Source: a virus. From it: a stretch of 42,698 nucleotides of DNA. Shown here piece after piece: positions 37,014-38,025 of this stretch. The translations under genes were made by a program, and so were the position numbers. The notes beneath the pieces are model-generated. The model was not told the origin of the DNA. It searched no databases and saw nothing but the letters and a program-made list of their open reading frames with translations. Every line of letters starts with the position of its first letter. Positions within the stretch are counted from its first letter, which is position 1. The DNA lies in the IMG/VR virus record IMGVR_UViG_3300042327_000420, positions 1-42,698 of that record; one strand, given 5' to 3'.

Positions 37014-37030
37014 TGTGGGTGCCTCCAACC
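37014..37030 (+). repeat. 17-bp element shared with the integrase leader, attP copy
   Basis: TGTGGGTGCCTCCAACC lies immediately left of, and slightly overlapping, the attP core. An exact inverted copy is at 38009-38025 in the integrase mRNA leader. A 17-bp exact match in 1 kb is very unlikely by chance. It could be an integrase arm-binding site or the basis of RNA pairing between the 5' leader and a read-through 3' end of int mRNA. Confidence 0.7.
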
Positions 37031-37075
37031 TTGCCAAGGTCGGGGTCGCGAGTTCGAGTCTCGTTTCCCGCTCCA
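37028..37075 (+). other. attP core: 3' half of a tRNA-Gly(GCC) gene
   Basis: These 48 bases are the 3' half of a tRNA-Gly with anticodon GCC: anticodon loop TTGCCAA, anticodon-stem 3' strand GGTCG, variable region, T-arm GCGAGTTCGAGTCTCGT, the acceptor 3' strand TTCCCGC, then TCCA. The 5' half is missing: upstream there is no D arm or matching GCGGGAA, so this is not a working tRNA gene. A partial tRNA next to an integrase gene is the classic attP form, since integration at the 3' end of the host tRNA regenerates it. Exact left edge of the core is uncertain by a few bases. Confidence 0.85.
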
Positions 37076-37113
37076 ATCAATAACTTACGTGGTTTTATTC
37101 ACGGAAGTTATGG

Positions 37114-37150
37114 AAAAAGAGGTAGTTATCCACAGTTGGGTGCTACCTCT
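37114..37150 (-). terminator. Hairpin after int, minus strand, likely terminator
   Basis: Read on the minus strand, AGAGGTAG and CTACCTCT form a perfect 8-bp stem with a 17-base loop, followed by TTTTCC; it starts 11 bases after the integrase stop. It looks like a Rho-independent terminator of modest strength (long loop, short T tract). Part of the transcripts could read through into attP. Confidence 0.6.
37126..37134 (+). promoter_or_regulatory. Perfect DnaA-box match TTATCCACA
   Basis: TTATCCACA at 37126-37134 is the consensus DnaA box; a near match TTATTCACG lies about 30 bases upstream. It is in the loop of the int terminator hairpin, between attP and int. DnaA binding here may be accidental, or may tie integration to the replication state. 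Single boxes occur by chance in phage DNA, so confidence is low. Confidence 0.3.
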
Positions 37151-37160
37151 GCTTCCTCTC

Positions 37161-37988
37161 TCACAAGCTGCCAATGTTGTCAGCTACCTTGCGAAGATGC
37201 TTAGTTGACAAATGTGCATAGCGCTGAACCATGCGATCATCCGACCAACCACCCATCTCGCGAACGGCTGCGGTATGAGTACCCTTCTGGATGTGCCACG
37301 AAGCCCACGTATGCCGCAGATCGTGCCATCTGAAGTTCTCTATCCCAGCCCTCTTCAGAGCCTTCCTGAAAGCCTTCGTGTTGCTGCGCTGTACTGGCTT
37401 GCCGCCATACGCAAACACCCACTCAGCGTTCTTATCCTTGGCCCTGAACCGTTTCCAGAGAACGTCGTAGGCGGTGTCATTCAGAGGGATCGAGAGCGGC
37501 TTCCCGTTCTTCATCTTGACCCCCTCGATTGTCACCATCTTGTTCTGAAGGTCGACCTCTTCCCACCGAAGCTCGCGGACGTTGGCGTCCCGAAGTCCAG
37601 TGGTGAGGGCGAAAATAACCTTGTCCTTCAGATGTGACGGCAGCTCTCTGATCAGGCGACGAGCTTCATCCTTGTCGATGTACCTAATCCTCGAGGACTC
37701 TTCCATCCTCTTGATCTTGGGTACGGTGTCGATCCATTCCCATTCGTCCCGCGCCATGTTTAGCACTGACCGCAGTACGGTCAGGTAACGGTTGACGGTG
37801 GACACAGCGCGGGTCTTCAGCATGTCATCGCGAAGATCCGCCAACACCCCCTTTGTGATACGGCCAAGAGGCAGGCCAGCTAAGTAGTGCGAGAGCACCT
37901 CTATATAGTGCTGCTCCTGCTTGGTCCACTTAGTGGTCCGTCCATCCAGCCACCGCTTTGCGGCTTCGTCCCAAGTCTTACCTTCCAT
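37161..37988 (-). CDS. int: Tyrosine-recombinase integrase
   Basis: The 275-residue product is a tyrosine site-specific recombinase that would insert the phage into a tRNA-Gly gene. The N-terminal part is the SAM-like core-binding domain (TWDEAAKRWLDG, then VSTVNRYLTVLRSVLNMARDE). The catalytic domain shows Arg133 in TTGLRDANVREL, a candidate Lys163 in VKMKNGKPLSIPL, His222/Arg225 in WHDLRHTWASWH, Trp248 in EMGGWSD, and nucleophile Tyr257 in MVQRYAHLS. There is no N-terminal arm-binding domain of the lambda Int size, so it is a short integrase. I chose ATG 37988 because GGAGG lies 4 bases upstream; a GTG at 38051 would add 21 residues. It is last in the minus-strand operon and faces attP. Confidence 0.92.
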   Translation of the reverse strand: MEGKTWDEAAKRWLDGRTTKWTKQEQHYIEVLSHYLAGLPLGRITKGVLADLRDDMLKTRAVSTVNRYLTVLRSVLNMARDEWEWIDTVPKIKRMEESSRIRYIDKDEARRLIRELPSHLKDKVIFALTTGLRDANVRELRWEEVDLQNKMVTIEGVKMKNGKPLSIPLNDTAYDVLWKRFRAKDKNAEWVFAYGGKPVQRSNTKAFRKALKRAGIENFRWHDLRHTWASWHIQKGTHTAAVREMGGWSDDRMVQRYAHLSTKHLRKVADNIGSL

Positions 37989-37992
37989 AAAA

Positions 37993-38017
37993 CCTCCAAT
38001 CGGTGAACGGTTGGAGG
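37993..38017 (-). promoter_or_regulatory. Hairpin hiding the integrase ribosome-binding site
   Basis: In the int mRNA, CCTCCAA (38017-38011) pairs perfectly with TTGGAGG (37999-37993), with an 11-base loop that can add two more pairs. The GGAGG is the Shine-Dalgarno, 4 bases before ATG 37988. So initiation at that ATG would be closed unless the hairpin opens, by upstream translation, protein or RNA pairing. The GGA in it, and two more GGA within 50 bases, fit CsrA-type recognition. The structure is inferred from complementarity only. Confidence 0.65.
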
Positions 38018-38025
38018 CACCCACA
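38009..38025 (-). repeat. 17-bp element shared with attP, integrase leader copy
   Basis: On the minus strand this reads TGTGGGTGCCTCCAACC, identical to 37014-37030 on the plus strand. It contains the 5' arm (CCTCCAA) of the hairpin that covers the int ribosome-binding site, and also codes part of the alternative longer integrase N-terminus. Confidence 0.7.

Follow-up and report, generated by a model that had tools for sequence, protein, structure and literature searches.

The window analysed here is the whole stretch of 42,698 nt of viral DNA (positions 1 to 42,698 of the IMG/VR record IMGVR_UViG_3300042327_000420). It carries an integrase gene (int) and a phage attachment site (attP), whose features are collected in Table 1. 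The catalytic domain PF00589, at residues 103-263, is the sole Pfam domain of the window Int; the N-terminal arm-binding domain, on which a call of arm-type sites would depend, is absent from this protein of 275 aa. A DNA similarity search around the window int against known phages returned nearly exclusively tRNA-Gly genes, together with one short integrase patch.

Table 1. Positions of the int and attP features in the window
Feature	Position	Strand	Basis or remark
int, P22-type tyrosine integrase, 275 aa	37161..37988	-	Pfam PF00589, PHROG 1, tblastn relatives
attP core, identical to the 3' part of tRNA-Gly(GCC), crossover within	37028..37077	+	annotated tRNA-Gly genes
attP-side 17-mer copy, beyond the crossover	37014..37030	-	int-sense RNA GGUUGGAGGCACCCACA, complementary to the leader
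Leader 17-mer copy, predicted first 17 nt of int mRNA	38009..38025	-	
Predicted int promoter TTGAAA-N18-TATGAT, predicted +1 at 38025	38032..38061	-	
Predicted RBS-masking hairpin CCTCCAA / TTGGAGG	37993..38017	-	folding; GGAGG at 37993-37997
Hairpin downstream of int, long loop	37112..37156	-	not conserved as terminator
Likely int mRNA terminator beyond attP	36880..36916	-	perfect 13-bp stem, 11-nt loop, T-run on both strands

The 17-mer TGTGGGTGCCTCCAACC occurs exactly at 37014-37030 (+) and, inverted, at 38009-38025 (-), as the earlier note on this DNA had described. No third site with up to 3 mismatches was found in the window (0.06 expected by chance), and the two copies form the only long perfect inverted pair joining the attP region to the int leader. 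The attP copy abuts the tRNA-Gly-identical block, with an overlap of 3 nt, and is separated from int by the crossover. The leader copy begins exactly at the predicted +1 of the only promoter-like site found within 36700-38500; since shuffled sequence yields 1.5 such sites, the match in the window counts only jointly with the conserved -10 spacing reported below. By folding, the CCTCCAA of the leader copy (38011-38017) can pair over the RBS with TTGGAGG (37993-37999), in accordance with the RBS-hairpin arm earlier recognised there. The CCTCC and GGAGG arms are kept, with changed loops, in the relatives L012, L018 and L045.

The hairpin just downstream of int had been taken for a weak terminator. 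The hairpin does exist; its U-run is missing in the relatives L004 and L018, and as a terminator it is not conserved. A perfect DnaA box (TTATCCACA, 37126-37134), kept in L004 and L012, lies in its loop. ACTTACG/ACTTCCG repeats were observed on both sides of the core, in inverted orientation (36978-36990, 37083-37095 and 37100-37112), and recur in relatives; they are possible recombination accessory sites, though the window Int is without an arm-binding domain. A single ORF of 3092 aa (27599-36877), unusually long for a 43-kb phage, stops just before the attP-side terminator.

The window attP with its left arm (36991-37076) resembles a complete tRNA-Gly whose 5' half has diverged; GGAGCGGcAA pairs in it with TTcCCGCTCC. 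Complete tRNA-Gly genes were called by ARAGORN at the attP of L018 (4930-5011) and L045 (3874-3950), and these three phages may carry a tRNA or a tRNA relic at attP. No Rfam family matched the leader or the attP element in the window or in P22, the only match being to tRNA, at the attP of L018.

Joint variation of the leader and attP copies

Relatives of int were found encoded on 21 viral contigs, to which a wider scan added more. Every close relative (int at least 66% identical) with attP adjoining int has a matching inverted copy in the leader, and the two copies vary together, reading GTGGGTGCC in the window, GTGGACGCC in L018 and TGCTGGAGCC in L045. Leader and attP match at 17/17 positions in L003-L009; 14 pairs and one G-U are formed in L012/L013, where the outer bases are altered in both copies; and L017-L019 and L023 show a 12/12 match of a different sequence, GTGGACGCCTCC. 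L045, with yet another sequence, has 10 contiguous and 4 more pairs, a helix not significant alone (p 0.32) and counted through its register. The host half-site stays constant across relatives while the attP half changes.

The leader copy is missing from the relatives without attP adjoining int (L010, L011, L014-L016, L020, L021 and L038), a decayed copy being seen in L010. Four of these contigs were searched whole and no attP core was found anywhere in them, while three controls have the core. In all eight int is intact, in most of them with no promoter at the int leader; the enzyme may have a different role in these phages, or act at some other site.

In more distant relatives the leader was compared with the 400 nt after int by a local helix score. 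This replaced unrestricted duplex folding of the leader and 3' flank, where long chained loops took over and no signal emerged. Significant complementarity was found also where the integrases are only ~35-55% identical to that of the window, as in L157 (a 22-bp region with one mismatch), L139/L176 (17/17), L152 (18/20, including four G-U), L153, L046, L184 and L195. Among named phages it is present in P22, ES18, SfII, ENT47670, Turner, PA-1, BZS1, mEpX2, GF-2, KpnBHU6, ENT1 and BPM-V3, and the arrangement reaches phages of Klebsiella, Proteus and Pantoea and many uncultivated or metagenomic phages. A 10-bp match in APSE-1 and APSE-2 is shorter and not significant alone, and complementarity in Meifeng is suggestive (p=0.09). 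The same test gave none in Mana and QDWS, and only a helix at another place in Erwinia phage 59. Lambda, having no leader/attP complementarity, was rejected as a member of the group. Conservation of the pairing in related phages, which the earlier note had named as a check, was found in the close relatives as covariation and co-loss with attP, and again in the distant families.

The leader site mostly falls within -55..-15 relative to the start codon. The attP site is mainly at +95..+150 relative to the stop codon, beyond the attP cores annotated in ES18, mEpX2, APSE-2 and BZS1; in SfII an annotated putative terminator begins 17 nt past the attP element. The predicted paired stretch covers the ~17-22 first bases of int mRNA in the window and many P22 relatives. 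The best -10 hexamer begins 10-14 nt before the copy, most often 12, in 18/31 families, placing the start of the helix at the predicted +1. In a subclade with a tRNA-Ser attP and xis-int order (L139, L140, L142, L176-L180) the leader copy lies within the 3' end of xis, and the int start codon is covered by a second hairpin, e.g. ATAGTG/CACTAT; no suitably spaced -10 box was found before the copy there (L140, L142, L176-L180).

The initial 10 nt of the copies were compared in 27 families, and pairing with the attP of the same phage was seen at 263/270 positions. As the families had been selected for showing a match and the partner was the best site, the fair comparison is a swap of partners, which gave a mean of 128/270 and, in 2000 rounds, never more than 170. 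Several Watson-Crick pair types occur at each of the 10 positions. When partners were swapped among 43 loci, the own attP was the best partner for 20/43 leaders (~1 expected). A single genome, offering two copies only, would leave room for chance or for a recent functionless duplication; the covariation, fixed position and co-loss across many lineages make the probability of either negligible, and a chance origin was rejected on the partner swaps and covariation.

Differences between the copies comprise 28 G-U against 12 A-C, under scoring symmetric for both and with families not fully independent, which favours int-sense RNA over DNA. That the pairing of the leader with the attP-side element evolves as RNA is thus well supported by these comparisons. 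The proposal that the 3' element of the int transcript pairs with its own 5' leader gains from the covariation and the G-U bias, the predicted partner being located beyond the crossover.

Copies serving as DNA sites, whether core- or arm-type sites for Int or sites for Xis, in the intasome and in autoregulation of the int promoter, would agree with an attP copy that adjoins the anticodon-loop core and shares ~8/12 positions with the other half-site, and with its place in the P arm of P22-like phages, where Xis might bind; the inverted orientation could then just be ancestral. We consider this very unlikely, since all positions covary and none drifts freely, the differences favour G-U in one RNA sense, the attP half changes against a constant host half-site, the boundary of the copy coincides with the predicted +1, and no xis can be recognised next to int in the window clade. 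A protein site has no reason to start at +1, nor to covary nearly everywhere while the host half-site is fixed. Integrase arm sites, the alternative put forward earlier, are disfavoured by the missing arm domain of the window Int, by covariation at positions where the host half-site is unable to follow, and by a leader copy that begins exactly at the predicted +1.

Separation of the copies and predicted effect of pairing

In the SfII-like prophage of E. coli I3 (NZ_CP195969), leader, int and core occupy 272337-273621 (-); the attP element is found at 312008-312181 (-), ~38 kb from the leader copy. The int transcript of this prophage is predicted to enter host DNA without the element. The anticipated separation of the copies by integration is therefore seen in a lysogen of a relative.

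Complementarity, covariation, co-loss with attP, the start at the predicted +1 and this separation can all be read from the genomes; the direction and effect of the pairing we infer. A temperate phage needs integrase for entry into the chromosome, and has to cease making it afterwards. The explanation that we hold probable, with moderate confidence, is that int mRNA pairs through its 5' end with an element of its 3'UTR past the crossover, and that unintegrated DNA is the main source of Int. The mRNA would start at 38025 and run through int and the attP core to the terminator near 36880 (both ends predicted), and its first 17 nt would find their partner in the 17 nt immediately beyond the crossover. 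The pairing would act positively, opening the leader hairpin that masks the RBS in the window, or the start codon in the P22 group, and would also bury the 5' end in a duplex; both effects together would give a good yield of Int from unintegrated phage DNA. Integration would send the pairing partner to the other prophage end, with less Int synthesis from the int promoter. Since Int from its own promoter is required for integration, a positive role with intact attP would be the sensible sign. Int overlaps xis in P22-like phages, so that at induction, speculatively, translation of xis could rescue the xis-int transcript, bypassing the hairpin by translational coupling.

In folding predictions the pairing gains -10 to -29 kcal/mol relative to local structure. 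Engagement of the copy raises the mean accessibility of the start codon from 0.28 to 0.55 (p=0.003), with the values going from 0.02 to 0.99 in P22, from 0.04 to 0.99 in SfII and from 0.02 to 0.92 in L046; no gain was obtained in L155, L157 and L187. The P22 leader fold is markedly stable (z -2.8), with the start codon inside a stem. Compared with shuffled copies, start-site masking over all families is marginal (p ~0.05), and universal RBS masking was dropped for this reason. The earlier idea that pairing frees the RBS stays plausible for the window phage and the P22 group, the case over all families being marginal. This marginal result, the families with no gain, the absent -10 box in the tRNA-Ser/xis subclade and the lack of complementarity in Mana and QDWS weigh against the favoured explanation. 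Because masking is marginal, start-site release is one likely output of the pairing. Protection of the 5' end would be another, common to all families with a copy at +1.

The pairing could also be real and have mRNA stability as its main output, the 5' end being hidden from RppH and RNase E and translation little affected. We judge this unlikely, though it deserves some weight: for most families, also those in which the start site is not masked, the predicted +1 is where the helix begins. In the window and P22 groups, however, the bases concerned take part in the start-site hairpin as well, a coincidence that would be needless if stability alone were at stake. A negative pairing, in which RNase III cuts the 17-22 bp duplex, or the duplex blocks initiation, so that Int is limited while attP is intact, has a precedent in lambda sib, which acts negatively from beyond attP (PMC2951348), and helices of this length could be RNase III substrates. 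It appears quite unlikely to us, as the element is carried on the int promoter's own transcript, yet integration needs Int; as the SfII terminator follows the element, which would make inhibition unavoidable; and as on average the start codon is predicted to open, not close, on pairing.

Relation to known integration-dependent controls

Going back to positive pairing, for the P22-type family as a whole we lean narrowly towards an int mRNA that is an attP-sensing switch, with Int translated or stabilised only while attP is intact, and turned off when recombination cuts the cis-acting RNA. Pairing of an int leader with attP RNA was not found described in the open literature, a search outside which many older P22 papers fall. 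If the switch is real, many P22-like phages, including P22, sense their own integration through RNA and with no protein regulator, by a device so far overlooked in well-studied phages, and int-attP cassettes without the far-side element may give poor Int expression.

In lambda, sib forms a local hairpin that RNase III cuts, and its effect on int is negative. The arrangement predicted here shares with sib a cis-acting site that the int transcript carries beyond attP and that integration removes, and post-transcriptional control of int; it differs in that the partner is the int leader, not a local arm, and in its predicted positive sign. The sib-like label given earlier is therefore apt for logic and geometry and not for mechanism, lambda having no such complementarity.

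Within P22-type Int/Xis/attP modules, the integrases are homologous and the complementarity is common to P22, ES18, SfII and mEpX2; the window departs from that type in its Int without the N-terminal domain and its attP copy abutting the core.

Dependence of int expression on integration state is known for the int promoters of ICEKp1 and ICEclc (PMC13023037) and for KplE1 intS (PMC2951348), and is predicted here as well. Those systems work through promoters or protein binding at att, the ICE-type scheme using different promoters in each state. Here a predicted promoter adjoins int and moves with it, and further promoters may act on int as well; promoter, leader and int would stay together in both states and the RNA partner would be what is lost.
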